A DNA stretch of 64,000 nt from Cinnamomum chago (lineage: Eukaryota; Streptophyta; Magnoliopsida; Laurales; Lauraceae): NCBI GenBank assembly GCA_038049695.1, contig CP142452.1, forward strand, positions 94,991,501 to 95,055,500. The letters are read 5' to 3'. The position numbers and the translations under genes were made by a program. This document shows, one piece after another, positions 3,103-62,407 of the stretch (position 1 is the stretch's first letter; each line of letters opens with the position of its first letter). The notes under the pieces are model-generated. The model saw only the letters and a list, made by a program, of their open reading frames with translations, ran no database searches and was not told the origin of the DNA.

Positions 3103-3107
3103 GAACC

Positions 3108-3794
3108 TGTAAGTGCCTAAAAATTACGGACTTAAGTAATGGAGGATTAAGCTCCTGATGCAAGGTTTTGAGGGAGGTAAGAGGAATGGATCGAGCCTCC
3201 AATGACCTGAAAGGAAAAGAACAACGGTCAGAGACCCTGGCTGTGGGTAGCCGAAGGCCCTCCGACGGTCAAGTTAGTGCAGGGACTGAGAGGGATGGAG
3301 AGAAAGAGTTCTGGGAGGGAGAGATTATGCGTTTGCGTTTGCGTACCTTTCATGGATTCTCTCATGCAATATATAGGTGGAGAAGTCATCATTGGACTGT
3401 CTTCCTGAGGAGACGGGAGTCCCATCTGAGCGTACTCTCATCTCCTGAGTGGGGGTAGGTAAAAAGGGGACGTCCAATCGGACCAGCCCTCCTCGCCTAT
3501 GGATATGACTGTAGATATGGCGTGCCCCTCGCGTAGGTCCGGAGCCCATTCTGTTGTCAGACCGCCGATCCTGTTTTGGCAGTGCATTAATGGCGGCATT
3601 TATGATTGAATGAAAGGAGGCCGAGCTCGGTCGAGGCTGAGGCCGAAGTTGGGACTCGTGACGTAATCACTGGGGCCCGCTCCATAATTGCCCGAGACGG
3701 CGATGCAGCCGAACTTGGCGGCACCGAGATCACGGGTTACCGAGACTGGGTGGTGGCCCCGTTTAATTCCATGATCACGGAATGACCCCACACA
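3108..3794 (-). repeat. 3' LTR of the Retand-like element
   Basis: 687 bp. It is the same length as the copy at 13906-14592, and a read-through by eye finds one difference. It is the 3' LTR because gag-pol runs on the minus strand and the polypurine tract abuts it at 3795. Confidence 0.95.
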
Positions 3795-3812
3795 ATTGCC
3801 CCCTAGCTCCCT
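3795..3812 (-). promoter_or_regulatory. Polypurine tract of the Retand-like element
   Basis: Read on the minus strand, a G-rich purine tract (GGGAGCTAGGGGGCAAT) ends exactly where the 3' LTR begins, as expected for the plus-strand primer of an LTR element. The related element has a matching tract (AGCTAGGGGTAAT) just before 58517. Confidence 0.75.
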
Positions 3813-4113
3813 GACCTCGGGCTTTCTCCGAGGTCGGGAGCTAAGACTTGGATGTGACGGGGCTGTCTTTTCGTATCCCGCCTTAGGAATATCCTCATTA
3901 TGGCGCCTCTTCACCTGCCCTAGGCAATAAATAGGGCGTCATGATTGCCCTGCCACAGCGGATACGGAGAGCGCCGTTTCGCATACCCGAGGCGATTAAT
4001 GTCGTACCAGAGGCATGGCGGAATACTTATCGTCTCTGCCACGTGGAGCCTTCTGTCTGGTAGGACACCGAAGTCGAAGCGACGCGACGTGCGGTAATCA
4101 AGAGGGGGCGCTT

Positions 4114-4125
4114 CTTTATAAAAAG
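4114..4125 (+). promoter_or_regulatory. TATA box of the antisense accessory gene
   Basis: TTTATAAAAAGG lies on the plus strand about 300 bp before the accessory gene's ATG. A pyrimidine-rich leader follows it. It sits outside the LTR, which suggests the antisense gene has its own promoter. This is inferred from sequence only. Confidence 0.5.
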
Positions 4126-4422
4126 GGGCCCGCTCCTCTTTCTTCCTCTTTTACCCTAGCTGTTAGTTTGAAGGAGACTCTGCTGCAACTTTGTTCAACC
4201 CAGAAGACCGCCGAACTCGGAGACTCTTCGCCCTCTGCTTCCCGTTCCTTGCCCTTCCGTCTTCTGCAGTCCTCTTTGCTTTTTCTGTGAGTTATGCTTC
4301 TTGCCTTCATCTCCTCTCTGTATTTCTCCTTCTTCTGCGATTTCTGAGATTCCTAATCCCTTAGGCCCTCCCAGCCTTCGTTCCCTTTCTTCTATTTCTT
4401 CCTTCTCTTCTGTTTCAAGAAA

Positions 4423-6890
4423 ATGGGAATATACAGCCACTGGGTAGAGGGCCCTGCAGCCCTAGAGGCTTTTAGGGAGAACTTTAGGATCCCAGAGGAT
4501 GTCCTGGTGAAACCCTTTGTCTTCCAGGGCTCCGTCAAGGGTTTCGTCACCTATAAGGAATGGATGCCCTTCCCTTTGCTGGCTGTGTGCGAAGGGGGGG
4601 GGGTAAGATTCCCCATCCACCCACTCCTCCGGTCCTGTCTCCACGCGTGGAACCTCTGCCCCTTCCAGCTAATGCCGAACGGCTTCAAAATAATAATGGG
4701 CGTGGCCCAGCTGAACTGGATCTTGGACATCGGTCTCGGCGTACATGATTTAGAAGATGTCTACGATATCTGCAAGGCCGCGGGGGTCGAGGACGCTTAC
4801 TACCTTCGGGTCAAGGCCAGGCGCCGTCCCTTGGTGAATGCCCTGGAGGACTCCACCAAATACGCCGGAGATGACCGCTTTTTGATCTCGGGAAACTGGG
4901 AGTTCAGGGGGACCGAGACCGAGGAGGACCGGAGGATCCAGGTCCCACGAAAACCTGGGACACCCCCTAGTAAATGCCCACCCTTCTAGGTTTAAGCTTA
5001 TCTTGCCTTTGCCTGCTATTATGCCGAACTGATGTCCTTGCCCATTTTTCCGTGTAGGCATTCAGAAGAGGAGGAGAGAGGCCGGTTTCGACAAGTGGAA
5101 GCGCAACGACGCGTGGCTAGAGAGGATTGAGCGCTACCACGGTCATTACGACCGAGCCGCTTTCTCCTTGCTGGGGTACAAACCTCGGTATCAGTCTTAC
5201 ACCAGGAAGGCTGCCGAGATTCCTCTTGCTCCACCGGGGGAAGTCGGACCCGACCCTGCCGAGACAGACGGTCAAGCCACGGATCCTCGGGACCCGATAG
5301 TCATCGGCGACAGTCCTCCCCGAGACCGAGGAGAAGCAGAGGAAGAGGAAATGGAGAGGCCGCGCCCGCCCTTGAAGAACCTGGGGGCCCTGATTTTTGG
5401 AGGTATGGCCCCGGAAGCCCTCAAGAACGTCCCCAGCGGTGCAGGTGCCGCCCAGGGATCCGCCCCCGCCGCCTTTTCTAGCTCGTCGGGCGCGGCAGGC
5501 GCTTCTTCGGCCAAGCCTTCGAAGGGGAAGTCGGGGGAGTCTTCCGTGGCCGCTCGGCAGGCGAAGGACCCTCGTCCGCTCCGAGAAAGCAGGCGCGGGT
5601 GGTGGACCCCGGGAAGGAGACTCCACCTCCTCCGCCGCAGAAGGAAGCCCGGCCTCGGTCCGCCACTGCCGGAAAGGAGGGCGAGAGGCCCCCTCCCGAG
5701 AAGAGGCCCCGTCTGTCGAGCGCGGAGGGGAGGCATCCGTCGGCGGAACCGCAGTCCCAGCAGTCCACGCCAGCTCCTTGGAGGCCCAACTTCGACCTCA
5801 ACCCCAACGAGCCGATGACGGTGGGGGTGCAGCTGGGGACGAGCTGGGAGTCGGTCATGGCTCTCGCCCGGGGATGCGCCCTCCCCCAGGATATGGAGAA
5901 GCACAGGAAAATCCGGTCTCCGAACTTAATCCATCATACCTTGAGGGCGTCGCTCGAGGTAGCTTTTCTCCCCTATTTCTAAAATTTTCACTTCTTAGTC
6001 ACCCGATCCAACCTACTCACCGTTTCTATTCTTTTCACAGAACGCGCAGAGGCTCCAAGTACTGATGGAGAGGGAGGCGGAAAGAGCTGCCCAGATCGAT
6101 GGGCTAGAGAAGGAGAAGAGGAAGCTGGGGAGTGCGCTGGAGGCCAGCGCGGCCGAACTCAAGAAGGTGGGGGAGAAAATCGCCCAACACGCAACGGATC
6201 AGCAAGCAGCGAAGGCTGAGATCATTAAGTTGCGGGGCGAGAACAACAACCTGAGGAGCGCCGCGGACGAGAAGGCGAGGAGGGCGTCCCGGCTGGAGGT
6301 TGAGCTCGTCGAGAGGGGGGCCGAGCTCGCGAAGAAAGATGCTGAGGTTGCCGAGAAGCAAGGCGAGCTGGCCAAGAAAGAGGCTGAGCTTGAGGCCTCC
6401 AAGAAGGAGAGATCTGAGGCCGAATCCATCCTGCGAGATCGGGCTACAAAGGCTTACCAGGACGGGGTGGATTGGGCCTCGGAGGATTACGCGGCTCAGA
6501 TCACAAATCTGAGCTCAGTGCTGTACGAGATGGGGTGCAAGGCGGCCCTGCTCAAATATGGGGTCTCTGAGGACCATCCCATCTTCTCGGATCTTCCTCA
6601 GTTCCGACCTGCAGCAGTGGGTTCAGAGCCAGAGCCAGGCTCCAACCCTTCTGAGGCTCCGGCCGATGCCCCCATCGCTCCTCCTCCGCCCCCGACCTCT
6701 GCCGAAGTCCAAGGCACTCCTCTTCCTCCTCTGACTCCTGCTGAAGCTGAAGGTGCTCTTCTTCTTTCTCCGACTCCTGCCGTCGTCCCGGTGGCCGAGA
6801 CTCTTGCTGCTGCTCCTTCATCTGCTTGTGATCCCCCCATTTCCTCTGCACCTCCAGAGTCGGAGACCCATAAGGAGGTGTCCAAGGAGT

Positions 6891-6892
<2 letters not shown>
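4423..6892 (+). CDS. Antisense accessory gene of the Retand-like element (gypsy-type plant 'transposase_28'-like)
   Basis: The gene runs opposite to gag-pol, between pol and the 3' LTR. Three coding blocks are visible: about 4423-4969, 5058-5958 and 6041-6892. Two short intron-like gaps of 88 and 82 bp (GTAAAT..GTGTAG and GTAGCT..TCACAG) separate them. Block 1 starts MGIYSHWVEGP and resembles the N-terminal domain of proteins often labelled 'putative gypsy type transposon' (PF04195), including a conserved PHPLL-like motif (here IHPLL) and an NGFKI segment. Block 2 is a proline/arginine-rich linker ending in an APWRP...PMTV motif. Block 3 is an alanine/glutamate-rich coiled coil with a proline-rich tail. 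It has about one break. Additional antisense ORFs are known from Tat-clade elements; their role is not known, and no function is claimed. The other element in this window (minus strand, 62408-64000) carries a diverged version of all three blocks. Confidence 0.7.

Positions 6893-6894
<2 letters not shown>

Positions 6895-6931
<37 letters not shown>
6895..6931 (+). repeat. T homopolymer (37 bp)
   Basis: An uninterrupted T-run two bases after the accessory gene's stop codon. Read on the minus strand it is a 37-bp A-run. It may reflect slippage or an old poly(A) scar. Confidence 0.9.
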
Positions 6932-6933
<2 letters not shown>

Positions 6934-7429
6934 GAATTTTCTCTATTCTTCGATGTAATTTTTCTTCTTTAAGTGCACAGAGATCATGTAATCGTACTTC
7001 CTGATTAATGAAAAGAAGTTCTTTTTCCATCCTGCTGTTTCCCTTCTTTGCTTCTTCTTTTGTAATGGTCTGTGGATGCTCTGATGTGAGGTGATGTCCA
7101 AAATTTTTGCCAAGTGGATGAGGTCGGTAGGAAGGGCCTGCCTCGGACAGACCTTTTCCAGTCTCGGAAGACTAGGTTGTCCCTTTCCTACTTTTGAATT
7201 TTAGCAAGCAAGCGAGTCATGCTGCCGTCTGACCAAAGGTTAGGCCTTAATGGCATATTTTTGAGGGGGAGGTTCCCAGGGCGAAATGGTGGCGAGCCCC
7301 CGACTCACATGCCGGGGTTTAGCTGAGGCCGTGCTCCCACGGTCTAGGTGAGACTCTAGGGTAGGCCGAGTTTCGCGACTTAGGATCATTAGCTTTACAG
7401 ACGCCCCAGAGGACGTCTCTTGGTCAGTT

Positions 7430-7864
7430 GGCCCTGCGACCGAACTCAAGGAGGATGGCTCGAGGGCCGGATCCTTGCGGAGTTGGTCCTACGACCGAAC
7501 TCAAAGAGGATGGCGCGAGGGCCGGATCCTTGCGGAGCTGGTCCTACGACCGAACTCAAAGAGGATGGCGCGAGGGCCGGATCCTTGCGGAGCTGGTCCT
7601 ACGACCGAACTCAAAGAGGATGGCGCGAGGGCCGGATCCTTGCGGAGCTGGTCCTACGACCGAACTCAAAGAGCATGGCGCGAGGGCCGGATCCTTGCGG
7701 AGCTGGTCCTACGACCGAACTCAAAGAGGATGGCGCGAGGGCCGGATCCTTGCGGAGTTGGTCCTACGACCGAACTCAAAGAGGATGGCGCGAGGGCCGG
7801 ATCCTTGCGGAGTTGGTCCTACGACCGAACTCAAAGAGGATGGCGCGAGGGCCGGATCCTTGCG
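7430..7864. repeat. Tandem array, 55-bp unit, eight copies
   Basis: Each unit contains CGACCGAACTCAAAGAGGAT and a GGCCGGATCCTTGCGGAG block. The spacing is exactly 55 bp, and only scattered substitutions separate the copies. The unit length is not a multiple of three and the unit has no stop in any plus-strand frame, so open frames appear in all three plus frames. The array lies between the end of pol and the accessory gene, a common site of tandem repeats in Tat-clade elements. Confidence 0.95.
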
Positions 7865-7935
7865 GGGATCGAAGAAATACAAGGCAAATCTGTGTCAAAA
7901 GGTTCTTCTTTATTGATCAATTGTCTTGAATACAG

Positions 7936-10900
7936 CTAGAAATAATATTTCTTTAGGTGGGCAGCGTTCCATGGCCGTGGCAATTCCTTGCCATCCATCC
8001 CTTCAAGCCTGTAGGCCGACCTTCCTGAGACAGAGACCACCTTGTAGGGGCCGAGCCAGTTCGGCGCAAGTTTGCCCTCATTAGGATCTTTATCTGCTGG
8101 GAGTGCTTTTTTTAAGACTAGTTCTCCAACCGAGAACCTCCTTTCTTTGACCTTCCGGTTATACCCTCGGGAAAGCTGCTGCTGATAGGCGGCCAGGCGC
8201 ACGGATGCTGCTTCCCTTCGTTCCTCGGCAAGGTCGAGTTCTCTGGCGAGGTTCATCTCGTTCTGCCCTTGATCGAAGAGATTGGTTCTCAAGGTCGGGA
8301 GGCCGACCTCAAGAGGAATTACTGCCTCCATTCCGTAGGCCAACGAAAAAGGGGTGGCCGAAGTGGATCGTCTCGGGGTGGTTCTGTATGCCCAGAGGAC
8401 ACTTGGTAATTCCTCCGTCCATCTGCCTTTAGCTTTATCAAGCCTTTTCTTCAGCCCCTCCAGAACTACTTTGTTCGAGATCTCTGCTTGCCCATTGCTC
8501 TGCGGATAGGCCGGAGTCGCATAGAGGTTTCTGATGCCGAGCTCCTGACAAAAGCTTTTGAAGAATTTTGAATCGAATTGGGTTCCGTTGTCCGAGACCA
8601 GAGCTCTGGGGATTCCAAACCGTGTGACGATGTTTTTCCACACAAAATTCTTTGTGTCAAGCTCGGTGATGGAGGATAAGGCCTCTGCCTCAATCCATTT
8701 TGTGAAGTAATCGGTGCCCACCATTAGCCATCTTTTGTTTCCCGGGGTTCGGTGGAGAGGTCCGACGATGTCCAGCCCCCACTGAGCAAAGGGCCATGGA
8801 CTGGAGATCGGGCTCAGGTCCTGAGCTGGCTGGTGGAGGGAATGGGAAAACTTTTGGCATTTCTCACATTTCCTGGCGTAGATCTGGGCATCTTTCTGCA
8901 TGTAGGGCCACCAGTAGCCCTGGCTAATAGCTCTGTAGGCCAGCGATCTTCCACCGATGTGGCTACCGCAGATCCCTTCATGAATTTCAAATAGAAAATC
9001 CTCTACCTTGCTCAGATGGACGCATTGGAGATATGGTCTAGAGTAGGATTTCCTGTAAAGCTTTTCATCTGGAGATAGCCAGAAGTGAGCTGCTTTTACT
9101 CTGACCTTGTGGGCTTCGCTCTTGTCTTCTGGGAGCTTGTCCTCTCTCAGGAACGTCATGATTGGGTCCATCCAGCTCGGACCAAGGTCAGTGCACAGAA
9201 CTGGCCGAACTGGGAGGAGCTCTATGCTCGGCTTCTCCAACGTCCCCACATCAACTGTTCTTTTTCCAGCTTCTACAGCCGAGGCCAAGCTTGCCAGGGC
9301 GTCTGCATGGCGATTGGACTCCCTACCAACTTGCCTGACTTCAACCTTTTCAAACTGGGAGAGGAGCTGCCTGGTATGGGCTAGATAGGCCACCATTCTT
9401 TCGTCTCTGGCTTGGTAGTCCCCGCTCAGCTGGCTCGTCACCAACTGGGAGTCGCTGAAGACCACCACCCTCCCTGCCCCCAGTATTCTCGCACTGCCGA
9501 GGCCAGCGATCAGTGCTTCATATTCTGCTTCATTGTTTGATGCTTTGAAGTTGAGGGTTAGTGCTTGCTCTATGACTAACCCTTCTGGGGATTGGAGGAC
9601 GACGCCGGCGCCTGCCCTCTTGGATGTAGACGATCCGTCAACGAAGATTTTCCAGGCTGACTCCAGAAATTTTTCCCAGGATTGGTCTTCCTCAGTCTTG
9701 GTGTTACCTTCGTTGCTGCCCTTGGAGTCCCCCAGTTCGGTATCGAGCGCGGTCGGTGCCGAACTAGGAGAGGTGAATTCGACGACGAAGTCCGCCAGGA
9801 CCTGTGCCTTGATTGCCGTTCTGGGCTGATACTTGATGTCGAACTGACCCAATTCCACGGCCCACTTGGAGATTCGGCCAGAAAAGTCCGCCTTGCGGAA
9901 GAGGGACTTGAGCGGGAATTCCGTGATGACTACCACCGTGTGAGTCTGGAAGTAATGGGAGAGCTTGCGAGAGGCGCTGAGCAGTGCTAGTGCTAGCTTT
10001 TCAAGAGGTAGATATCTGGTCTCGGCATCGAGCAGGGTTTTGCTGGTGTAATAGATGGGGTACTGTTGCTTGTCGCTTTCTCGAACCAGCACCGAGCTCA
10101 CCGCATGGTCCGAGACTGCAAGATAGAGATAGAGAAAATCGTCTTGCGACGGGGTGGACAGTAGAGGTGGTGAGGAGAGGTACCTTTTGAGCGTCTCTAG
10201 TGCCAAATCGCATTCTGGAGTCCATTGGAACTTGGAACTCTTCTTCAGTAGCTGAAAGAATGGACGGCACTTGTCTGAGGCGCGGCTGATGAAGCGATTG
10301 AGTGCAGCGGCCATCCCCGTCAGTCTCTGGACCTGCTTGGCCGAGGTGGGGCTTTGGATAGCCTGTATGGCCGCGATTTGCTCCGGATTGGCCTCAATCC
10401 CTCTCCGTGTCACCAGGCTCCCCAGGAATTTGCCGGAGCCGACACCAAATGCACACTTCGAGGCATTGAGTTTGAGCTGGAACTTTCGGAGGATGGCAAA
10501 TGTTTGGCGCAGGTCTGGTAGGTGGCTCTGCGACTCCTTGGACTTGACTACCATGTCGTCAATATAGACCTCCATCGTCTTTCCGAGCTGATCTCGGAAC
10601 ATCCTAGTGACCAGCCTCTGATATGTCGCTCCGGCGTTCTTCAGCCCGAAGGGCATCACCTTGTAACAGTAGATGCCCCGAGGTGTGATAAACGCAGTTT
10701 TTTCCTCATCAGCTCTGTGCAGGGGGATCTGATGGTAACCTCGGTAGGCGTCCAAGAAGCTCATTCTGTCATGCCCCGAGGTGGCGTCGATCATCTGGTC
10801 GATCTTCGGGAGCGGGAAGCTATCTTTGGGGCAAGCTTTGTTAAGGTCGGTGAAGTCTACACAGACCCTCCACTTGCCGCTCTTCTTCTTTACAACCACT

Positions 10901-13854
10901 GTGTTGGCTAACCACTGGGGATAGTGCACCTCGCAGATTGCCCCAGCCTCGAGGAGCTTCTCCACCTCCTCTATAATCGCCTCTGTCTGTGGGATCCCCG
11001 TTCTGCGAGCCTTCTGCACTACGGGCTTGTGTCCGGGGTCCACATTTAGCTTGTGACATATGACCTCGGGGTCAATCCCGGGCATCTCGTAAGGAGTCCA
11101 CGCGAAGATATCTTTGTTCAGGAGTAGGAAGTCCAGCAATTCGGCCTTTTCAGCGTCAGGGAGCTGGCTACCCAGCAGGAAGTAGCGCTCCGGATCTTCA
11201 GGATTGATCCTGACCTCGGTGAGATCTTCTATGCTTTTCTGCCCTGCTGTCCGCCCGACATCCTCGATCTCGGCTTCGAGCTCGGCCATGTGCACTCGTC
11301 TCGGTTCCTCTTCTCCAGGTGCTACGACCACGAGACATTCTCGGGCCATCTGTTGGTTTCCGCACACAGTCACTATTTCGACCGTTCCTCCAGGCTTCTC
11401 CAATGGAAACTTGAGTTTTTGATGAAGGGTGGATGACACTGCCTCCATGGCGTGCAGCCAACTTCGTCCCAATATCACATTGTAGGGGGACGGCGCGTCT
11501 ATCACCATAAAGTCTGCTACCTTTGCTGCGCCTCCGATCCGGACTTCAAGTGAGATCCTGCCCTTGGGGTATACTGGCTGGGCACTAAACCCTATCAAGG
11601 GGACGTGGGCCTCCCGCAGGGCGGATTCGGGCAGGCCGAGCTGTTTGAAACAGCTATAGTATACAATCTCGGTGGAGCTCCCTGGGTCCACAAGGACGCG
11701 CTTGGTAGTGTAATTGTTCAGCCGCAGGGTGAGGATGAGGGCGTCATTGTGGGGGAGCTCGACTTCCTTCAGATCCTCATCCGAGAACCAAATCTTGGGC
11801 TTTTCTCTCTTACGCCTCTTCGAGGCGCTTTCCCACTCTGCCGACATCACCTGCTTGCCATGGGCAGCTCTCCTGGCGTCTGACCGAGCCTGGGCGCTTC
11901 CCCTGCCTGGGGCGGGTGCTAGGTGGATGACATTGATGGTACCCGCCGGCTCATCGCTCTCATGGTCATCACTGGGTCGAGTGCGCTGCTGTGCTCGGTG
12001 GACCCTTTCCTCCTGTTTGATATACTCCTGGAGGTGTCCGTCATGGACGAGCTTTTCGAGATGGGACTTCAACGCAAAGCAGTCTTCGGTCATGTGCCCG
12101 TGCTGCTTGTGATAGGAGCAGCGCTTGTTCTGGTCTCGGATGGATGGGTCGCCTGTCATCGGCCGAGGCCACTGGAAGTATGGCTCTGCCTTGATTTTGT
12201 TCAGGAGTCTATAAATAGGCTCCTTAAACACAACACTGATAGCCCTGTAAGGATCGTTGGCAGGCTTGGCGGACTGTGACCTCGGCCTCTTGCTGCTGTC
12301 CAAGGCGATCGAGAAAGAGCGGGCGGGCTTCCTTTTATCCGACCTCGGTCGGGGGAATGTTTCTTCCTTGGTGGAGGCCTGGTGTTTCTTCGGGAATCCG
12401 AACCGCTCTGTGCCATGGGCCTCGTCTTCTTCCTGCTCAATGTACTGTTTTACCCTTGCCATCAGTGCTTTCATCGTGGCCACGGGGTTTCGGACTAGAT
12501 CTCTGCGGAGTTCATTTCCTGGGAGTAACCCCTCCCTGAAGCACATGATGGCGACTTCGTCATTGGCGTCGGTAATCTGGCTGTATATCGTCCAGAATCT
12601 TCTGGCGAAGGCAGTGATACCCTCACCGTCTTTCATCCGGATCGCCATGAGATTGCTACCTGTCTTCGGGATGACGCGGTGCGCTTGAAACTTTTCAAGG
12701 AAAGAACTCCGGAGCTGCCGCCAGCTTGAGACCGACCCGGGAGGGAGTGCGCAGAACCACCGGAGAGGGAGGTCTCCCAGACTGGATGAGAAAACCCTGC
12801 AGTTTAAAAGACCAACGTCCCCCCAGACCGACATCCGCTGAGTGAAGTGCCGCAGATGCGCCTCTGGGTCTGAGGCCCCGTCGTAAAGTACGAACCTTGG
12901 GACGTTAAATCTCTCGGGGAGAGAGAAATTTTTAATTTCCTGCGAAAAGGGGGGCATGCCCTGATCGTCCTCTTCATGCTCATCAGCCTGGTCTCGGGCG
13001 AGACCGATCTCGGCCAAACGGGCCTGGACCTCCTGCTTGATATAGTGGTCCAACTGCGCCCTGAGGTCCGTCTGGTCATCGAGTCTCGGGGATTCCGGCT
13101 CACGCCGTGCTCCCCCGAGACCACTAGGCAGATGACTGCTGCTCGAGCCTTCCTCCTCGCGGTGAGACCTCCTTCTGTGGTTGAGGGCATGCCTCAGATC
13201 TTGGTTACCCGGGTGGGTCCGCTTCCGCCGGGGAGGCGGACCACGAGACTTCCTCTCATTCATCTCGAGTCGCTCCTCTAGACGACGAATCACCTCGTCT
13301 TTATCTTGGAGAGCCTGGTCCTGGGCATCGAGCTCTTTAAGCAGGGGGTCGTCATTTCTCGTTTCACGGATATGATGGAGAGATTGGCCGTCGTCGCGAG
13401 AGTGACGGTGGGACTGATGGGACGTCGCCCTGATAGGGGTTTTGCCCCTTCGCCGAAGATCCGACGTGGGGGCGTTCTGCTCCGGACCCCTTTGTGATCG
13501 ACCATCAGGATGGAGAGGGACCCCTCGACGGTCATCGTGGTGGGGGCGCGCAGTCGTGGGCCGAGACGAAGAGGCCGATTGGACTATGCCCTCCACGCAC
13601 GCGGCTCCCGACCTCCCCCCAGACCTCCTCTGGCGCGGGGCCTCTGGTTCCTCCTGCCTGACGGGAGGAGCCGCAATCGGCCCCGGAGGGGGAAGAAGAG
13701 CGGAACGAAGGTCGGGGGGTGGTTCCGGAACAACCGACTGGGCTGGTTGCGACGGCAAGAATGGTGGGAACGCAGGTTCCTCCCGTAGCGGGAAGGACGA
13801 TGCTTTTTTAGACGTCGATGGTCCTCCGCCACCGTTTCTGGTTTTTGGAGGCAT
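7936..13854 (-). CDS. Gag-Pol polyprotein of the Retand-like element
   Basis: A single open frame of 1972 codons that looks whole. Rough order in residues: a basic, proline-rich N-terminus; the capsid-like retrotransposon gag domain (about 310-430); a Cys/His knuckle (about 575); an aspartic protease (about 720); reverse transcriptase (about 990-1170, YIDD near 1096); a first, divergent RNase H-like region (about 1260-1380); a second RNase H (about 1400-1530); integrase with zinc-binding head and catalytic core (about 1600-1800); and a C-terminal tail. The duplicated RNase H region is the hallmark used to place the element in the Tat clade. No stop separates gag from pol, so a fused polyprotein is the natural reading. 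The first residues, MPPKTRNG, recur at the start of gag in the second element (59316). Confidence 0.95.
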   Translation of the reverse strand: MPPKTRNGGGGPSTSKKASSFPLREEPAFPPFLPSQPAQSVVPEPPPDLRSALLPPPGPIAAPPVRQEEPEAPRQRRSGGRSGAACVEGIVQSASSSRPTTARPHHDDRRGVPLHPDGRSQRGPEQNAPTSDLRRRGKTPIRATSHQSHRHSRDDGQSLHHIRETRNDDPLLKELDAQDQALQDKDEVIRRLEERLEMNERKSRGPPPRRKRTHPGNQDLRHALNHRRRSHREEEGSSSSHLPSGLGGARREPESPRLDDQTDLRAQLDHYIKQEVQARLAEIGLARDQADEHEEDDQGMPPFSQEIKNFSLPERFNVPRFVLYDGASDPEAHLRHFTQRMSVWGDVGLLNCRVFSSSLGDLPLRWFCALPPGSVSSWRQLRSSFLEKFQAHRVIPKTGSNLMAIRMKDGEGITAFARRFWTIYSQITDANDEVAIMCFREGLLPGNELRRDLVRNPVATMKALMARVKQYIEQEEDEAHGTERFGFPKKHQASTKEETFPRPRSDKRKPARSFSIALDSSKRPRSQSAKPANDPYRAISVVFKEPIYRLLNKIKAEPYFQWPRPMTGDPSIRDQNKRCSYHKQHGHMTEDCFALKSHLEKLVHDGHLQEYIKQEERVHRAQQRTRPSDDHESDEPAGTINVIHLAPAPGRGSAQARSDARRAAHGKQVMSAEWESASKRRKREKPKIWFSDEDLKEVELPHNDALILTLRLNNYTTKRVLVDPGSSTEIVYYSCFKQLGLPESALREAHVPLIGFSAQPVYPKGRISLEVRIGGAAKVADFMVIDAPSPYNVILGRSWLHAMEAVSSTLHQKLKFPLEKPGGTVEIVTVCGNQQMARECLVVVAPGEEEPRRVHMAELEAEIEDVGRTAGQKSIEDLTEVRINPEDPERYFLLGSQLPDAEKAELLDFLLLNKDIFAWTPYEMPGIDPEVICHKLNVDPGHKPVVQKARRTGIPQTEAIIEEVEKLLEAGAICEVHYPQWLANTVVVKKKSGKWRVCVDFTDLNKACPKDSFPLPKIDQMIDATSGHDRMSFLDAYRGYHQIPLHRADEEKTAFITPRGIYCYKVMPFGLKNAGATYQRLVTRMFRDQLGKTMEVYIDDMVVKSKESQSHLPDLRQTFAILRKFQLKLNASKCAFGVGSGKFLGSLVTRRGIEANPEQIAAIQAIQSPTSAKQVQRLTGMAAALNRFISRASDKCRPFFQLLKKSSKFQWTPECDLALETLKRYLSSPPLLSTPSQDDFLYLYLAVSDHAVSSVLVRESDKQQYPIYYTSKTLLDAETRYLPLEKLALALLSASRKLSHYFQTHTVVVITEFPLKSLFRKADFSGRISKWAVELGQFDIKYQPRTAIKAQVLADFVVEFTSPSSAPTALDTELGDSKGSNEGNTKTEEDQSWEKFLESAWKIFVDGSSTSKRAGAGVVLQSPEGLVIEQALTLNFKASNNEAEYEALIAGLGSARILGAGRVVVFSDSQLVTSQLSGDYQARDERMVAYLAHTRQLLSQFEKVEVRQVGRESNRHADALASLASAVEAGKRTVDVGTLEKPSIELLPVRPVLCTDLGPSWMDPIMTFLREDKLPEDKSEAHKVRVKAAHFWLSPDEKLYRKSYSRPYLQCVHLSKVEDFLFEIHEGICGSHIGGRSLAYRAISQGYWWPYMQKDAQIYARKCEKCQKFSHSLHQPAQDLSPISSPWPFAQWGLDIVGPLHRTPGNKRWLMVGTDYFTKWIEAEALSSITELDTKNFVWKNIVTRFGIPRALVSDNGTQFDSKFFKSFCQELGIRNLYATPAYPQSNGQAEISNKVVLEGLKKRLDKAKGRWTEELPSVLWAYRTTPRRSTSATPFSLAYGMEAVIPLEVGLPTLRTNLFDQGQNEMNLARELDLAEERREAASVRLAAYQQQLSRGYNRKVKERRFSVGELVLKKALPADKDPNEGKLAPNWLGPYKVVSVSGRSAYRLEGMDGKELPRPWNAAHLKKYYF

Positions 13855-13886
13855 GACTTCTGTAGAGGCTTTGGCACAGATCCTAT

Positions 13887-13903
13887 TCCCACAGACGGCG
13901 CCA
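13887..13903 (-). promoter_or_regulatory. Primer-binding site
   Basis: Two bases inside the 5' LTR the minus strand reads TGGCGCCGTCTGTGGG. The first ten or so bases match the 3' end of a plant tRNA-Asp (TGGCGCCGT...), the primer reported for several Tat and Athila elements. The tRNA assignment is from memory. Confidence 0.6.
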
Positions 13904-13905
13904 AC

Positions 13906-14592
13906 TGTAAGTGCCTAAAAATTACGGACTTAAGTAATGGAGGATTAAGCTCCTGATGCAAGGTTTTGAGGGAGGTAAGAGGAATGGATCGAGCCTCCAA
14001 TGACCTGAAAGGAAAAGAACAACGGTCAGAGACCCTGGCTGTGGGTAGCCGAAGGCCCTCCGACGGTCAAGTTAGTGCAGGGACTGAGAGGGATGGAGAG
14101 AAAGAGTTCTGGGAGGGAGAGATTATGCGTTTGCGTTTGCGTACCTTTCATGGATTCTCTCATGCAATATATAGGTGGAGAAGTCATCATTGGACTGTCT
14201 TCCTGAGGAGACGGGAGTCCCATCTGAGCGTACTCTCATCTCCTGAGTGGGGGTAGGTAAAAAGGGGACGTCCCATCGGACCAGCCCTCCTCGCCTATGG
14301 ATATGACTGTAGATATGGCGTGCCCCTCGCGTAGGTCCGGAGCCCATTCTGTTGTCAGACCGCCGATCCTGTTTTGGCAGTGCATTAATGGCGGCATTTA
14401 TGATTGAATGAAAGGAGGCCGAGCTCGGTCGAGGCTGAGGCCGAAGTTGGGACTCGTGACGTAATCACTGGGGCCCGCTCCATAATTGCCCGAGACGGCG
14501 ATGCAGCCGAACTTGGCGGCACCGAGATCACGGGTTACCGAGACTGGGTGGTGGCCCCGTTTAATTCCATGATCACGGAATGACCCCACACA
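13906..14592 (-). repeat. 5' LTR of the Retand-like element
   Basis: 687 bp, matching 3108-3794 except for one visible base. It starts TGTGTGGGGTC and ends CTTACA on the minus strand. The duplicated GAACC follows at 14593-14597. Confidence 0.95.
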
Positions 14593-14597
14593 GAACC

Positions 14598-42902: not shown

Positions 42903-43559
42903 CTGAGCACAGTTTGTTCATGTGAAAGGAGTATAAAGAAAGTGGTTTGAAATGTGACAAAAGGATTTTGGAAATCCTGAAGACTTTGACAGGCTTTAGG
43001 CCAGGCCCATCACACCGACAGTCCATTGAAACAACCCTCTCTCGTCTCCTAATGTGACGCTCCACTTTCTACAGTTCTTGTTGATGCTGATCATAATAGG
43101 CAAGTGGGCAACAACCCAGAAATCCTGCTGATTAGGACTGATTATCTTTTGCTTGAATCATGCCAACTGATTACTTACATCATTAATCCATATATGCAAA
43201 AAAGCCCATGCGTTTCACAGGTTAATGTCTAAATTAAGAAGGAATGGGTCCCCACAAATAAGAACAATAGCAATAGTACTAATAATATTATTTTGGGGTT
43301 TGATATTCATACTATACGGATCATATGATTTTGGGGTATAAAAATTAGGGGGATTCGGCGAAAGGTCCCTGAACATTTTACTTTATTGCCTTAGGTCCAC
43401 AATCTCTTTTTATAGTGTGAAAGGTCCTTTTTCCAAATTTGAAAACCTAAAGTATCTAATTTACCCTTTCTTCAAATCATATCCCATGATTGGTGGGATA
43501 AGCCATTAATAATGGTCAACTACCATTAAATTAGTCATGATTAATAAAATTCCACTAAT

Positions 43560-44280
43560 GAGATTTTCAAATAAAGTTAAAAAAACAGGAAATAAATTTC
43601 AAATAAATTTCTAAAAATGAAATAAATTTCAAAAATGCAAATAAATTTCAAAAAATCCAAATAAATTTCAAAAGACGAAAATAAATTTCAAAAGATCCAA
43701 ATAAATTTCAAAAGACGAAAATAAATTTCAAAAGATGTAAATAAAATTAAACTCTAAAAAAACAAAAAAAATTCAAAAAATACAAATAAATTTGAAATAA
43801 CGCAAATAAATTTCAAAAAATGCTATAATATCAAAAGAACATAGAGAAATTTAAAAGGACGCAAATAATTTTCAAAAGAACCAAATAAATTTCAAAAGAT
43901 GAAAATCAATTTTAAAAGATCCAAATAAATTTCAAAAGATCCAAATAAATTTCAAAAAAATATAAATAAATTTAGAAAAACGCAAATACATTTGCCACAA
44001 ACTCGGATAAATTTGTCCAAACTCAGATAAATTTGTCCCATAACTCAGATAAATTAGCCAAAACTCAGATAGATTTGTACAGAACGTAAAGAAATTTATT
44101 TCAAAACTCAGATAAATTTGCAAAATACTCAGATAGATTTGTTAAGAATTCAGATAAATTTGCTAAAAACTCAGCTAAATTTGTCCAGAACTCAGATAAA
44201 TTTGTTCCAGAATTCAAATAAATTTGTGCAAAACTCAAAACTCCAAACTCCGTTAAACTTGATAAAAACTTAGATAAATT
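43560..44280. repeat. Irregular short repeat array in element A
   Basis: Two interspersed units with about 17-26 bp spacing: first AAATAAATTTCAAAAGATCC-like, then CTCAGATAAATTTGTCC-like. Both contain ATAAATTTG/C. The open frames here (runs of LSEF) are repeat translations. Confidence 0.85.
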
Positions 44281-44289
44281 TATCATCTC

Positions 44290-45040
44290 TCCTTTCTCTC
44301 TTCTCTCTCTTCCTCCCCTTCACCTCTTCCAACCCAACACTCATCTCTCTATCTCTCCACCCATTCCCCCAAAGCCCATCTCTAGACCCATTACAGAAAC
44401 TCACGCAACTTGTCTCTGTCTCACTAACCAGAGCCAAACACCTTAAAAAACACCCAAATTCCAAATCCCCCTTCAATTCCAAGACCCCCCTTTTCCCGCA
44501 CAGCTATGGAGCATACTCAATCTCTGTCAATTTTGGTACCCCACCTCAGAAATCCTCTGTAATCATGGACACATGAAGCAGCCTTGTTTGGATCCCCTGC
44601 ACTCACTCCTACCTCTGCAAGAACTGCTCTTTTCCTAGTCAACCCTCTCTCCAAAACCCCCCTTTCATTGCCAAATTCTCCTCTTCTTCCAAGCTTGTCG
44701 GATGCGCCAACCCGAAATGCAGCTGGCTCTCGGATTCAGACTCTCTCCAATCCAATTGCCAGCTCGGACTCAGCGGATTCGCTTACTGCCTCCTCTTGCA
44801 CCGATCTGATGACACCACCAACAGCAGTTCATTGGTTTTGGACGGCGGGTCGGGTTCGGGTGAGAAAGGAGTAGGGTACACCCCATTTCTGCAAAACCCG
44901 ACGGCCGGAAATCCATCGTTCTCGGAATATTACTATGTCGGGTTGAGGAAAATAACCGTTGGGGGCAAAAGTGTAAAAATTCCATACCATTACCTCAGAC
45001 CCAGACCCGATGGTAATGGTGGGACGATTGTAGATTCCGG
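44290..45040 (+). pseudogene. Captured fragment of a nepenthesin-like aspartic protease
   Basis: A piece of a host A1-type aspartic protease gene inside TIR element A. One frame reads a propeptide (LHPFPQSPSLDPLQKLTQLV, then SLTRAKHLKK), then YGAYSISVNFGTPPQKSSVI. The first catalytic motif follows, but its DTGS is interrupted by a TGA at 44574-44576 (MDT-stop-SSLVW). It continues YLCKNCSFPS and GCANPKCSW, then jumps to LGLSGFAYCLLLHRSDDTTN, so roughly 100 residues of the usual protein are missing. It resumes with GYTPFLQNP, FSEYYYVGLRKITVGGKSVK and stops at GNGGTIVDSG, the second catalytic motif. The C-terminal third is absent. It cannot make an active protease. The source gene is not in this window. 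Confidence 0.82.
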
Positions 45041-45360
45041 ACGATGGTAATGGTGGATCTGTTTTCTCATCGACTGCTTCTCCGGCAATGGCGGCTGAGA
45101 ACAGGAACTGCTTTTTGAAGCGGGTTTCGGTCTTCTTCTGTGATGGCCGAACTTCTGCAAATCAGATCGTCCAGGTCCTCTACAAATTACCGGTGTTGAG
45201 ATCGAAGCAGAGAAGAAGGCCACGATCCAAGTTTCTCTGCAACCGATCGTCCGGATCCTCTTCAAACTGCCGATGGCCCAGCAGAGATCAACGATGTCCT
45301 TCTCTGCAAACTCCCACACGCTGTGTGCTGCTGCTCGTCGCTGGTGCTGGTTGAGATCTC
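45041..45360. other. GC-rich cargo of unknown origin in element A
   Basis: It follows the protease fragment directly. The coding-like composition (repeated CGATCGTCC and TTCTCTGCAA motifs) contrasts with the AT-rich element ends. No domain recognised. It may come from a second captured gene. Confidence 0.45.
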
Positions 45361-45616
45361 AATAGTCAAGATCGATCTCCGAAGAAGAAAATCCCTGTCC
45401 GGTTTAAAGTAATGAGGGGGAATGAAAGATTTGAAATTTAAAATTTCAAAATTAGATGCCTAAACAGTTGGAAGAGGGCAAATTAGTCATGTAAATTGTA
45501 TATAGGGACTTCTGGCTGCAAACAGTCTAACTGCTTGGACCAGAGCCCTTAAAAAGAATTTACCTGGATTGGAGGCTTGATAGATTTAATTCTAGGGACC
45601 TTTCGCTAATTATCTC

Positions 45617-47100
45617 TATACACAATGAAATCAATTGTTAAACAGTAAACCTACGACGACAATGAGATTACTATGAAAATATTCAATAGTATGATCTTCT
45701 ATGGTGGTGCTCCACACAATCAATGATTTATTTGGATGCAATACAGTAAGCAATGCCTTTGGTTAAAACTGAAGTAAAGGTGGTGATGATCCACAAATAT
45801 TGATACTCGCCCATTTCCAATTTTGACCCAATCAACTGCTACCGTTGGATTAAGTCAAAGTTAGATATATTGGCTTAAAAAGAAAGTTGTCACATCCCTA
45901 ATCCATATTATACCTTCATTATTCCAATTATCCTTGTGATTGACATCCATCTAGATGGACCCCATGTAAATTAAGGCATTTGCGGTTTTATTTGCAGTCA
46001 ATGCAAAAAAAAAAAAAAAAAAAACACTGATGACTTAAAGATATAACTACTGGTATGTTGACATTGTAAGAAAATCAAAATATACTCAAAAGTAAGTGAA
46101 TTGAAATAGAACGTAATAATATATGTTGATGGCTGGCATTGTTGCCATGGATCACATAACTAATTAGGGCCAGTTTGTTTGCATAATGCATAGGAATTAA
46201 TGCCAAAAGTGGTTAAAAATAAAGATTTCCGATGAATATACAAAAAATGGGCATCAATTAACCCGCCCTATGATGAAAGTGAATCAAGGGAAGGTAAGAA
46301 ATGAATACTCAACCACCATCCTAGTAATTCTATTTATAAAAAGTCAAGGTTCCATCTAAATTGCTATCTTGCATCGTTTATTCCTCATCTCATATCATTC
46401 GTACTTAGCCTCTATATTAAATCTTTGGAAGAACTCATTTGATCATGAACTATATATTCAAGTCCTAAGATTTTATCACAAACAAATAGACCCTAAGGCA
46501 TGTTCGTTTACTAGTGAAACTGATATTTGTGATGCAATGGGGGAAAATTCATAAATATGATGTGATGGCTTGTACCCTTGGCATATGTAGAGGTCACGTT
46601 TTGTTACAAGAATTTCAAATTTCAACCACTTAAAAAGTCTAGAATAGCCTTTGAAATTCTCAGAATCCCGACTTTCTTAGCATTTGCAAATCATCTACCC
46701 ATTTAGAGGATCCGAGAATTCCACATAGGGGACAACCCTCTTCACTTGGGCATCGAGTAATGCCAAAGAAGTTAAAATACTAAGAATTTTAAAGACTACT
46801 TTTGACTTTTCAGGTGGATTTAATTCAGAATTCCAATTAAAAAACACAACATCCAAAAATTAAGTGACAATCATCACATCATTGTCTTTGAATTCCCAAC
46901 AACAGAAACTTCAGTAAGAAATATTGGTAAATAAACAGGTTCTAAGTGATGCATGTGATCTACTCTGGCGAAGGGCCCATAAACAGACAGTAGATATATT
47001 ATGGCGTTCCAATTTCATATAATCCAATATTTTAACTGTATATTTATTTTAGACATGGACAGCAATTTTTGACTTAAGACCCAGCTCTTTGTTTGTCTCT

Positions 47101-47136
<36 letters not shown>

Positions 47137-47504
47137 ACTAGTGGGAATATATTCTATTTCGATGATTTCAATTTTGAACGCATGGCTTTATAGAGCTACT
47201 TGCAGGTTTGGAAAACTGCGAGTCTGTCTAGGAACTGCCACAAGTTATTTATTTATTTATTTTGTTAATTTTGGAAGCACTGCAAATTGGTAAAGAATTC
47301 TTTACTTCGGTAGACAATTATATGATTTACCAACCATATATATCAAATTCCACTACCCATCAGGAAAAATAAATAAATAAATCTGATACAGAGGTTATCT
47401 CAAGTGTGATTTTTATGTCAGCAATTTTGGGCTAATTGAGTTATCTAAGTTTTAGAATATAGAATTCTCTCTCTCTCTCTCTAATCTCTCTATAATTTTA
47501 CTTA
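45617..47504. other. Spacer between Pack-type elements A and B
   Basis: No gene recognised. It contains a Tourist-like MITE, an A-run (46006-46023) and GA (47103-47131) and CT (47466-47482) microsatellites. Confidence 0.5.
46167..46493. mobile_element. Tourist-like MITE (327 bp)
   Basis: Left end GGGCCAGTTTGTTTGCATAA and right end, reverse-complemented, GGGTCTATTTGTTTGTGATA. It is flanked by TTA and TAA, near the PIF/Harbinger TWA target. Same family and length as the MITE in GDSL intron 4. Confidence 0.65.
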
Positions 47505-47729
47505 GGGGGATTCGGTGAGAGGTTTCTTAAAGTATTACTTTGTTGCAAACAGTGCACACAAAAAAGTCATGCAACCAAAGGTCTTCTAACACATTCTTAT
47601 ACTTGATATGTCTAATTTACTCATTCTTTAAATCATATCCCATGATTGGTGGAATATCCTATTAATAATAGTTAACTACCATTTTAATGGGCTATGATTA
47701 AATGAATCTCATTAATGAGATTTTCAAAT

Positions 47730-48500
47730 CAATTCTAAAAAGACATAAATAAATTTTAAAATAATGCAAATAAATTTCAAAAAACGTAAATAAACTTAAA
47801 AAAAGCAATAAATTTCAAAAGAACGTAGATAAATTTAAAAAGACACAAATAAATTTAAAAAGATCCAAAATAAATTTCAAAAGATCCAAATAAATTTAAA
47901 AAAATATATAAATTAATTTCAAAAGACGTAAATAAAATTAAAAAGTGCAAAGGAATTAAAAAAAAATGCAAATACATTTGCCAAAAATAAGATAACCCAA
48001 TTTTCCAAATTAGCGAACAATGTGGCAAAAAACTCAAGTCTTTTTTTGTCAAAAACTTAGTTAAATTTATTTAAAAAAATACAAATAAAAATAAAATTAA
48101 AAAATACAAATAGATCTGAGAAAATATAAATAAATTTACCAAAAACACAAAAAGATTTGTTCAAAAACTCAATTAAATTTTTTTTAAAATGGAGATAAAT
48201 TTGTCAAATACTACCTATATTTTTCAAAAACTCAAATAAATTTGCAAAAAACTCAAATAGATTTGTTCCAAAATTCAGATAAATAGCAAAAAACACGGAT
48301 AGATTTATTCAGAACTCAAATAAATTTGTCCTAAAAGTCAAATAAATAAAAAATTCAAATAAATTTGTTCATAACTCAGATAAATTTGTCTAGAACTTAA
48401 ATAAGTTTGTTCTAGAAGTCAGTTAAATAGCTAAAAACTCAGAAAGATTTGGCTAAAATTAAAATAAATTTGACAAAAATTACAGAACTTAGATAAATTT
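47730..48500. repeat. Irregular short repeat array in element B
   Basis: The same AAATAAATTTCAAAA-like and ACTCAGATAAATTTGT-like units as in element A, with similar order (first type left, second type right). Confidence 0.8.
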
Positions 48501-58148: not shown

Positions 58149-58516
58149 ATGGGTGCACGCGTGCGAGGCATCACCTCGAGCGCTGTACGCGTCGCTTCGA
58201 ATTCGTTGGACGACCAACCAGATGGAGACACGTGGTATTGCCAGTTCTTTTCCCGCAATGATTCAGACGGTCTATTAATTACCTCGAGCAGACGAAGCAA
58301 CAACAGTGCGATATTTATCGCCTCGGGCAGAGGAAACGACACCGACGTGCTATTAATTGTCTCGGGTAGATGAACAGACATCATGATAGAGATCAGACGT
58401 CATCAGCTGACACAGAGATGAAGTTCGAATTGGTACCCAAGACTCTCCTAACATAGTACTCAGCTCCCGACCTCAAAGAGTTAGAGAACTGTAAGAGGTC
58501 ACGAGCTAGGGGTAAT

Positions 58517-59267
58517 TGTGTGGGACGTTTTCCTAATTAGCAGGATTGAGCTAGTCTCGGTAATAGTGCCGACTTGGCTTATCTCGATCTCAGTGTCCAA
58601 GCTTGGCAATAGTGCCAAGATACATCCAGTTCGGCAACAGTGCCAACTAGCACCGAGCTTGAGCTAGCTTCGGTAAGAGTACCGGCTAGGTTCACCTCGG
58701 TCTCGACTTAAAGCACCTCGGCAACAGTGCCAAGATGCGTTCATATCTGGTCTCTGTATCATCTTCAGTTCAGCACGACCAACTGAGATGAATACTAGGC
58801 CATGATTGTACTCCCATAAAATTACAGCTACGTTGCAGAACGTACTATATATAAGATGGGCGCCGGATAATGATAAAGGGTTGTTCTTATCAGATGATCA
58901 CATCCACATTAATACAACAAGTTGGCGCATGATCCGTTTGGACAATATCTCCACCTACCCCTACTAAGGGAGTACCGGATGAGACTTCCACCTATACATA
59001 TATGAGGGTAAGAATCTAGAAAGGTAGACCACATAATGCAATACAATACAAGTATACTGGCATTTCTTCTCCATTCACCCTTTGTTCAGTGATAGCACTA
59101 ACTCAGGCATCGGAGAGTCTTCGGCTGACTGCAGGCAGGGTCTCTGACCTTTCTTTTCTCCTTCCCTTTCAAGTTTTAAGGCAATCCATCATTGCCAAAG
59201 AAGTTTAACAGCATTATTATGAGTTTTATACTCACCTAATCAAGTCCGTAGGATTTAGGCACTTACA
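58517..59267 (+). repeat. LTR of the second Retand-like element (751 bp)
   Basis: It starts TGTGTGGGACG and ends CACTTACA, the same termini as the first element's LTR. A polypurine tract (GAGCTAGGGGTAAT) precedes it and a primer-binding site follows. The body is largely unlike the first LTR. It contains five or so copies of a CTCGG.AA.AGTGCC motif at about 58555-58735. Confidence 0.85.
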
Positions 59268-59315: not shown

Positions 59316-60886
59316 ATGCCTCCAAAAACCAGAAATGGCGAAGGACGATCTAAAGCCCTGTCACTACCACCAACGGTCTCCCGTCAGAGGAGATCCGGGG
59401 GAAAGTCTGGTGCAGAAAGTGTAGAAGAACCTGTAACTCAGCCAGGTTCGTCATCAAAGGGGGTGACAACACCTCCCCAGCAGAGTGTTACCTTGTTGGA
59501 GCCTCCCCCACGGAGCAAAGCTCTAGTAGCAGCAAGATCTCGTCAGTCCCCTCACCAGGTGGACTGCGATGACGATAATGACGAAGACCCGTTCCTTGTG
59601 GATATCAGGGCCCAAAACCTTGTCATCCAGGAGCAAGATGAGCTGATTCATCAACTTAAAAAGCAGCTCGAGGAGAAGAAGAAAGCCTGGGTTCCGTCCC
59701 CCAAAACAAAACCGGGCTCCTTCGGTCGAGCGGGACTTGAGGCAAGTCCTGACCAACAAGACAAGAGACCAAGATTACGAAGACCAGAGAAAATGGCTTG
59801 ACCGCCAAGTCAAGCAGACGGTCCGACGCAATATGGAAGTGGTCAGCTTCACTCAAGATCGGCTAAACGCCTATGATGCCGAGGACCAAGGTGTCTCCCT
59901 TCTCTTAGGGGATAAAAGATTTCTCCCTCCTTGATATATTTAGCATCCCGAGGTTCGTCCTCTATGACGAAAACTCGGACCCTACTGTACATCTCCGACA
60001 TTTCACCTAGGGGATGACAGTATGGGGCGACGTTGGTCACCTAAACTGTAGAGTCTTCCTTTCCAGTTTAGGGGATCTCCCCCTAAGGTGGTTCTGCGCA
60101 CTCCTAGACGAATCGATTTCGAGCTGGCGGCAGCTTTGAAACTCCTTCGTGGAAAAGTTCCGAGCGCATGGAGTAATCACAAAAACAAACGACGACCCCA
60201 TGACGATCAGAATGAGGCGGGCTGAAAATATTACTCAGTTCTCCAAAAGATTTTGGACCTTCCACAACCAAGTGGAAGATGCCACTGACAAAGTGGCCCT
60301 CACGTCTGTCAAACAAGCTCTACCGCCAGGCAACGAGCGTCGAAATGACCTAGTTCTGTTCCCCGTGGTCACGGTGAAAGCAATGGTGGCCAGGGTGAAC
60401 CAGTTCATCGAACAAGAAGAGGACGAGGCTCGAGCTCAAGAAAACTTTTGCCTCTGGTCGGACAGACCCTCCAAAAAAGGAAAGGCATCTCGAAAACAGG
60501 ACGCGGACCGAAACGAAATCCTACTGAGCTCGGCAACGACCTCAGAAAGCGGTAAAAAGTCCAAGTCAGTTGTTGCGTCTTACAAGGCTGTCAACACGGT
60601 TTTCCAGGAGCTCATCTACAAGCCCCTCGATAAGATCAACTCACAGCCGTTCTTCAAGTGGCCACAGCTGATGAGGGGTGACCCTTCTACCCGAGATCCA
60701 AGCAAGTTCTGTGCCTATCACAAGCAAAATGGACACAGGACCGAAAACTGTAAGGCCTTGAAATCTCACCGCGATGAACTTGTCAAGGACAGGCACTTAA
60801 AGGACTACATCAAAGAGGACCGAACTCATCGGCGCCAAACTAATGATGGCCACGACCACGATGAACTGGAAAACATTATCAACTAG
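59316..60886 (+). pseudogene. Gag region of the second Retand-like element
   Basis: It begins MPPKTRNG like the first element's polyprotein. The gag domain and a Cys/His knuckle (CAYHKQNGHRTENC) are recognisable, in the same order and at similar spacing. It is broken, with about two or three breaks. The region where protease and pol would follow is replaced by non-coding repeats, so this copy could only have moved with help from another element. Confidence 0.75.
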
Positions 60887-62110: not shown

Positions 62111-62407
62111 TAATTTTCAAAAGAAAGATTGAAGGCAAGTATATGAAAGAAATTGTATTAATTGATTGATAAAGAAATTACAAAATTCTTTACATTTTCC
62201 ACCAATACAAAAAAGAGAAATACATCAGAAAGGACTTTAAGGAGCAAGAGCCTCGACATTGGCCTTTGGAGGGTCGATCATAGGAGGCTCAGTCGCAGTA
62301 GGTTGGGGAGTAACCTCGGGCAGAGGAGTCGAAATGGCTTCCGGAGCGGCTTCAGGAGTGGGGGCAAGACTCGGCTCAGGCTCGGAGCTAGAAAACTTGG
62401 GCAGGTT

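Follow-up and report, generated by a model that had tools for sequence, protein, structure and literature searches.

Intron-containing antisense TRP28-like genes of Retand-type retrotransposons in Cinnamomum chago are under purifying selection

We analysed a stretch of 64,000 nucleotides of the Cinnamomum chago genome (contig CP142452.1, positions 94,991,501 to 95,055,500 of the forward strand; hereafter the window), which holds a Retand-type Ty3/gypsy retrotransposon, element A, at 3108-14592 with its sense direction on the minus strand. The plus strand of element A carries a gene of three exons, antisense to gag-pol. Very probably, element A is a young Retand-type element carrying the antisense accessory gene of its lineage, a gene that is under selection and whose introns and TATA box, the latter outside the long terminal repeats (LTRs), are conserved. 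Published antisense TRP28 open reading frames (ORFs) and the maize gene23, discussed below, place it in a known kind; it is a hallmark of the Retand lineage and not a new class. What is informative is the conservation of the introns, together with selection on the gene in relatives that lack the copying enzymes. Expression, splicing, localisation and binding of the antisense product, where we speak of them, are deduced from the sequence.

An earlier sequence-only reading of the window had described three coding blocks, separated by two short GT..AG gaps, running opposite to gag-pol. Alignment of the window with 26 other genomic copies (L040-L065; approximately 74-99% identical), which belong to 80 picked across the identity range from 150 listed exon-1 matches, turned these blocks into a gene model (Table 1): the ATG and the GT and AG of both introns are conserved in 26/26 copies. 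Exon 1 matches at least 150 places in the genome. Under this splicing, 13 of the 26 copies are open through to the common stop, with ~765-782 codons when intact. Exon 1 measures 544 nt in 24/26 copies and exon 2 measures 902 nt in 20/26, while intron 2 varies between 81, 82, 83 and 84 nt, as expected for non-coding sequence. A survey of 48 loci (L011-L058, one of which matched only part of exon 2) found the 902-nt exon 2 in 42 of the 47 loci in which it was complete; these 47 represent 40 distinct places, 7 of which were counted twice. Straight after the antisense stop lies a run of 37 T (6895-6931), that is, a poly-A on the sense strand.

The antisense frame is under purifying selection. The ratio of nonsynonymous to synonymous substitution rates (dN/dS) had a median of 0.22 (range 0.18-0.39) over the 44 of 45 pairs with dS >0.05 among 10 copies, non-intact ones included; a value near 1, which the sequence-only reading had said would speak against the gene, was thus not obtained. 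The wrong plus frames gave 1.38 and 1.19 and the minus frames 1.38, 1.36 and 0.31, and this comparison led us to reject an overlapping gene on the sense strand, which we had also considered. Constraint is strongest in exon 1, with a dN/dS of 0.10 (42 pairs, range 0.05-0.63), followed by 0.25 in exon 2 and 0.32 in exon 3. In 40-codon windows comparing L041 with 7 diverged copies, the ratio was 0.05-0.15 over codons 1-240, 0.25-0.39 over codons 241-520 and 0.17-0.23 over codons 521-680, rising to 0.46 over codons 681-720 and to 0.89-1.23 in the last 46 codons. Among 18 young copies (153 pairs) it was 0.40, higher as expected since fresh unselected changes are counted in. For shared changes, exons 1-3 gave 0.09, 0.27 and 0.39 in eight diverged copies of the A family, and 0.29, 0.32 and 0.52 in 19 young ones.

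A second, decayed element in the window, element B, resembles element A in its block order, in the motifs APWRP..PMTV, DGVD and NWEF and in a GTAAAT at the same exon edge, as the sequence-only reading had pointed out; the likeness does not extend to intron 2, whose donor and acceptor are both lost, and the antisense gene of B is dead, with several in-frame stops. The start of B, earlier placed at 58149, has to be moved, as its 5' LTR begins at ~58517, and its pol, earlier described as gone, is mostly so: a short remnant persists, matching the RNase H/second RNase H (aRH) linker only (E 1.9e-5). Element B reads 5' LTR, gag, pol remnant, tandem arrays and antisense gene, and what is left of its 3' LTR, 264 nt, matches the 5' LTR at 90.5% identity. 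The stretch directly before the 5' LTR (58149-58516) is internal-region-like, contains a polypurine tract and in parts resembles the flank of A's 3' LTR; it looks as if B's 5' LTR had also served an earlier neighbour as its 3' LTR, in a tandem or recombinant element.

Element B is not a lone deletion and belongs to a pol-less, gag-only family. Among 40 listed places for the end of its gag and the sequence that follows, 34 extend across both parts (one of them as two pieces) and 6 match gag alone; antisense exon 3 lies within 1.6 kb in 17 of the 40 (B included), all of them among the 34. Four of five further relatives carry gag, with no pol, next to the antisense gene; in the fifth, neither is present within the stretch examined. 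In B and eight relatives, intron 1 begins with GTAAAT in 7/7 copies with exon 1 and ends with AG in 6/7, and intron 2 retains its GT in 6/9 and its AG in 8/9. In exon 3, compared across 9 copies, changes common to at least two copies of this family gave a dN/dS of 0.19 and singletons 0.48; in exon 1, compared across 7 copies (L069 and L072 not aligning there), the values were 0.15 and 0.57. In shifted frames, the ratio was 0.92-1.3 when changes were shared and 0.76-1.0 when they were single. The low ratio of shared as against single changes indicates that selection held the gene in place as the pol-less lineage spread and that it decays once inserted. The earlier claim of persistence in a gag-only element is thereby strengthened, B carrying a dead copy within a pol-less family whose gene is selected. 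Such constraint favours a role that the element would need even without its own pol, as the sequence-only reading had proposed; its further suggestion of silencing escape is shown by none of our results.

A TATA box of its own, situated beyond the LTR, had also been ascribed to the antisense gene, and conservation supports this. The candidate box, TATAAAAAG, lies where it had been reported, upstream of exon 1 and beyond the LTR; TATAAA is conserved in 22/22 sequences (the window and L040-L060), and element B has TATAAATA ~250 nt upstream of its antisense ATG. In 30-nt blocks compared with L059, which is 82.7% identical over the gene region, positions 3773-4132 are 83-100% identical, the LTR stretch 3623-3772 is 43-80% identical and the leader 50-87%. 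These data are consistent with a promoter in the stretch leading from the 3' LTR to exon 1. Since the conserved block adjoins the polypurine tract, needs of the sense strand could also conserve it.

The same block carries an 18-nt repeated motif, ATTWATYGCCTCGGGYAG, common to the two diverged families of A and B. Two copies, 68 nt apart, lie in the block of A and three in the matching block that precedes B's 5' LTR, all in the element-sense direction, and these five are the sole sites within the 64 kb at up to 3 mismatches (none in 5 shuffles). Two copies were present in 49 of the 50 loci L010-L059, some of which are the same place twice and the first of which is the window, and one copy in L059. 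No match appeared in L001-L008, whose reach into the block was unchecked, or in L060-L078, where little or none of the block is present. A 23-nt version had 561 genome-wide matches at up to 1 mismatch, and its reversed control had 0. At least 20 of 85 listed exact 23-nt places have antisense exon 3 (150 listed places) within 4 kb downstream in the expected arrangement, and none has one of these exon places there in any other arrangement.

A profile search of the first coding block against PF04195 (Transposase_28/TRP28), as the sequence-only reading had proposed, returned a weak match of 16.5 bits for exon 1 of the window copy, under the cut-off of 26.2; we therefore call the domain TRP28-like and do not file it as a member of the family. 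Nine of ten exon-1 proteins match PF04195 at E <=1 (best 6.2e-4), and hhalign aligned the exon-1 profile with seven TRP28 domains, taken from the best-matching loci of the same genome that pass the cut-off, at a probability of 92.3% (E 5.6e-7, 127 columns). The gene also shares with TRP28 ORFs its antisense orientation adjoining the 3' LTR. In distant TRP28 families (L001 and L004-L008, read by eye), a GT donor follows just after the domain in the phase of intron 1, the split codon lying 20 residues after a conserved Trp as compared to 24 here; L002 and L003 have another frame in this donor region. Given the agreement in phase and near position, intron 1 probably predates the split of these families. 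A basic motif, PEKR[PS]R, occurs in 24/26 copies and in the window; its core KR[PS]R as a putative nuclear signal, and the predicted coiled coil in exon 3, are our own reading of the sequence and not tool output. A single-sequence structure prediction of exon 1 was unusable (predicted local distance difference test score, pLDDT, 35), and a PDB search with profile A1 gave 0 matches at E <=1.

These features allow a mechanism to be sketched. Transcription of the antisense gene would begin at a promoter of its own in the stretch separating the 3' LTR from exon 1. The transcript would be spliced, and its product would be a nuclear protein in which an N-terminal TRP28-like domain is followed by a basic, proline-rich linker and a coiled coil through which the protein self-assembles. 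The introns of the gene would not be lost in transposition, since it is RNA of the other strand that gets copied, and there they read CT..AC and would be unspliceable. Tentatively, and as a possibility that we do not rate high, the protein, assembled through its coiled coil, may work inside the nucleus on nucleic acid of the element itself. Its likely target would be the conserved block that holds the repeated motif and lies next to the promoter and the polypurine tract, and the effect would be to tune sense and antisense transcription or to handle the new DNA copy, so that gag-carrying elements might need the protein even with pol supplied from elsewhere. A more specific version, in which the antisense protein is a self-recognising DNA-binding regulator sitting on ATTWATYGCCTCGGGYAG much like a replication initiator on iterons, strikes us as rather doubtful. 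If true, each element would mark its own DNA, which would explain a selected gene in gag-only families after the loss of pol.

Several observations weigh against the picture of a selected TRP28-like gene and its proposed action. The other 13 of the 26 compared copies have a stop or frameshift, the most diverged of them with an uncertain alignment at the 3' end. The window copy is itself frameshifted, its exon 2 measuring 901 nt and its first stop falling at codon 436; in the alignment, its gap pattern recurs in 0 of the 47 whole-exon loci. We rejected a broken copy that had been mobilised, with a frameshift common to the window copy and its relatives: L048 equals the window copy in exon length but differs in gap pattern. 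The low value of one minus frame (0.31) resembles that of the antisense frame; this frame mirrors the true wobble positions and is interrupted by stops, 25 at the median. Among the young A copies, shared changes in exon 3 (0.52) do not fall below singletons (0.40), and each exon tested in the gag-only family has one stop common to at least two copies. Recombination with pol-bearing elements could blur the selection signal of that family. To these are added the PF04195 score under its cut-off and the DNA-binding step of the mechanism, for which the grounds would be only a published prediction and the position of the motif.

The gene might alternatively encode a protein that assists, as a cofactor, the integrase or reverse transcriptase of its own element, with B keeping a mere relic. 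The state of B's gene, by now a pseudogene interrupted by stops and damaged at the splice sites of intron 2, agrees with this, but the contrast between shared changes and singletons in the pol-less family indicates that the gene was maintained as the lineage multiplied, and we consider a cofactor of this sort unlikely, though the protein may serve the enzymes of a partner. It is still less probable that the functional product is the antisense transcript and not a protein, pairing with the genomic RNA and regulating transposition through double-stranded or small RNAs. Convergent transcription over the same DNA would permit such pairing, which a 2020 review puts forward as something that a function of the protein would also allow (PMC7264820); a regulatory transcript, however, does not account for the low dN/dS of codons 1-240 or for the ratios exceeding 1 that the plus strand gives when its frame is shifted.

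Introns recall a cellular gene, and PF04195 is named after a transposase, so that one may think of a gene captured from the host or from another mobile element, a passenger heading for loss. The abundance of exon 1 in the genome, the presence of this kind of gene in 97% of Retand clusters (PMC11963269) and sustained selection make this very improbable. Both strands hold long open frames in this GC-rich DNA, as would be the case if the antisense frames were open by chance; with the splice sites and the frame conserved among copies of ~74-99% identity and a dN/dS that is low in a frame-specific manner, chance is an explanation to which we give almost no weight.

In a recent survey, TRP28 ORFs, all of them antisense, were found in all but two of 63 larger Retand clusters, and their DNA binding was predicted (Vicient 2025, PMC11963269); an earlier survey reported TRP28 in 23% of Retand elements (PMC6317226). 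As in the gene described here, those ORFs lie antisense between pol and the 3' LTR, with tandem arrays in about half, and some clusters without gag or pol domains still keep TRP28. The survey scores ORFs singly, and its main text does not use the word "intron", whereas the gene described here is divided into three exons by conserved introns, scores weakly against PF04195 and has been put to a test of selection. By description, not by sequence, the gene can also be likened to gene23 of maize Grande, an accessory gene lying antisense within the 3' internal region, with a promoter to itself and a product that is found in the nucleus (Vicient and Casacuberta 2020, PMC7264820), and to ORF4 of Silene Retand, which has pfam04195, and the antisense ORF of rice RIRE2 (PMC7264820). 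Non-autonomous Retand clusters 2 and 3b of Alopecurus have no RNase H or integrase and keep TRP28 (Table 1 of PMC11963269); B's family differs in keeping gag and a short pol remnant only. Our literature searches, which covered subscription papers only partly, found no published description of a conserved exon-intron structure of the TRP28 gene. We did not meet selection in a pol-less family or the repeated motif in what we saw of the texts of PMC11963269 and PMC7264820, and no dedicated literature search was made for them. What antisense TRP28 genes do in Retand elements is described as an open question (PMC11963269); the present genome, with many intact and decayed copies, a selected pol-less family, conserved introns that would reveal splicing of an antisense transcript and a repeated motif next to the probable promoter, makes it testable.

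The assignment of element A to its lineage is based on its structure. Its LTRs differ by 1 base, pointing to a young element, and are flanked by a 5-bp target duplication, GAACC (3103-3107 and 14593-14597). A Pfam profile search of the single gag-pol frame gave the order gag, protease (22.7 bits, slightly below the Pfam cut-off), reverse transcriptase, RNase H (RT_RNaseH, 1242-1339), second RNase H (RVT_3, 1406-1524) and integrase (rve, 1689-1785). An aRH between RNase H and integrase is the arrangement described for Ogre/Retand (PMC6317226), and is present in A; by itself it does not separate Retand (Tat) from Ogre. Retand elements also have, from pol to the 3' LTR, a region of 2.9-6.6 kb in which an antisense ORF lies; in A this interval is 4.1 kb (7936 to 3794) and contains a 55-nt tandem array and the opposite-strand gene.

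Table 1. Positions of the antisense genes, the promoter-side motif and the two elements within the window
Feature	Position	Strand	Remarks
Antisense exon 1, element A	4423-4969	+	TRP28-like domain; most constrained part
Intron 1	4970-5057	+	88 nt, GTAAAT..TAG, phase 1
Antisense exon 2, element A	5058-5958	+	last stretch under strong constraint, then linker rich in proline and carrying the basic motif KR[PS]R; frameshift in window copy
Intron 2	5959-6040	+	82 nt, GTAGCT..CAG, phase 0
Antisense exon 3, element A	6041-6892 (stop included)	+	coiled-coil-like region (read by eye) with DGVD, then fast-evolving tail
Candidate antisense TATA box, TATAAAAAG	4117-4125	+	~320 nt beyond LTR end at 3794
Block from polypurine tract/3' LTR to antisense TATA	3795-4116	.	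better conserved than preceding LTR end and following leader
Motif ATTWATYGCCTCGGGYAG	3915-3932	minus	one mismatch
Motif ATTWATYGCCTCGGGYAG	3983-4000	minus	one mismatch
Motif ATTWATYGCCTCGGGYAG, three copies	58274-58369	+	39-nt spacing, in internal-region-like stretch preceding B's 5' LTR
3' LTR, element A	3108-3794	minus	687 nt; 1 mismatch to other LTR; ends from TG..CA and duplication
5' LTR, element A	13906-14592	minus	687 nt
gag-pol, element A	7936-13854 (runs 13854->7936)	minus	single open frame
Tandem array, element A	7429-7865	.	55-nt unit, 7.9 copies, between pol and antisense gene
5' LTR, element B	~58517-59267	+	gag-only, decayed element
gag, element B	59316-60886	+	with stops; pol gone except short remnant downstream
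Antisense exon 3, element B	62237-62893	minus	pseudogene
Antisense exon 2, element B	62968-63808	minus	pseudogene; 5' edge approximate
Antisense exon 1 (3' part), element B	63874-64000	minus	extends past window to ~64393 (L009)

Elsewhere in the window, two long minus-strand frames near element A (629-2535), with no Pfam family above the cut-off, could belong as exons to a host gene for a coiled-coil protein, and AT-rich tandem arrays of 20-21-nt units (CAAATAAATTT-like) occupy two blocks at 43540-48410. PMD (PF10536) domains are also abundant in the genome, with 133 among the matches listed, many of them with open frames near 300-600 amino acids.
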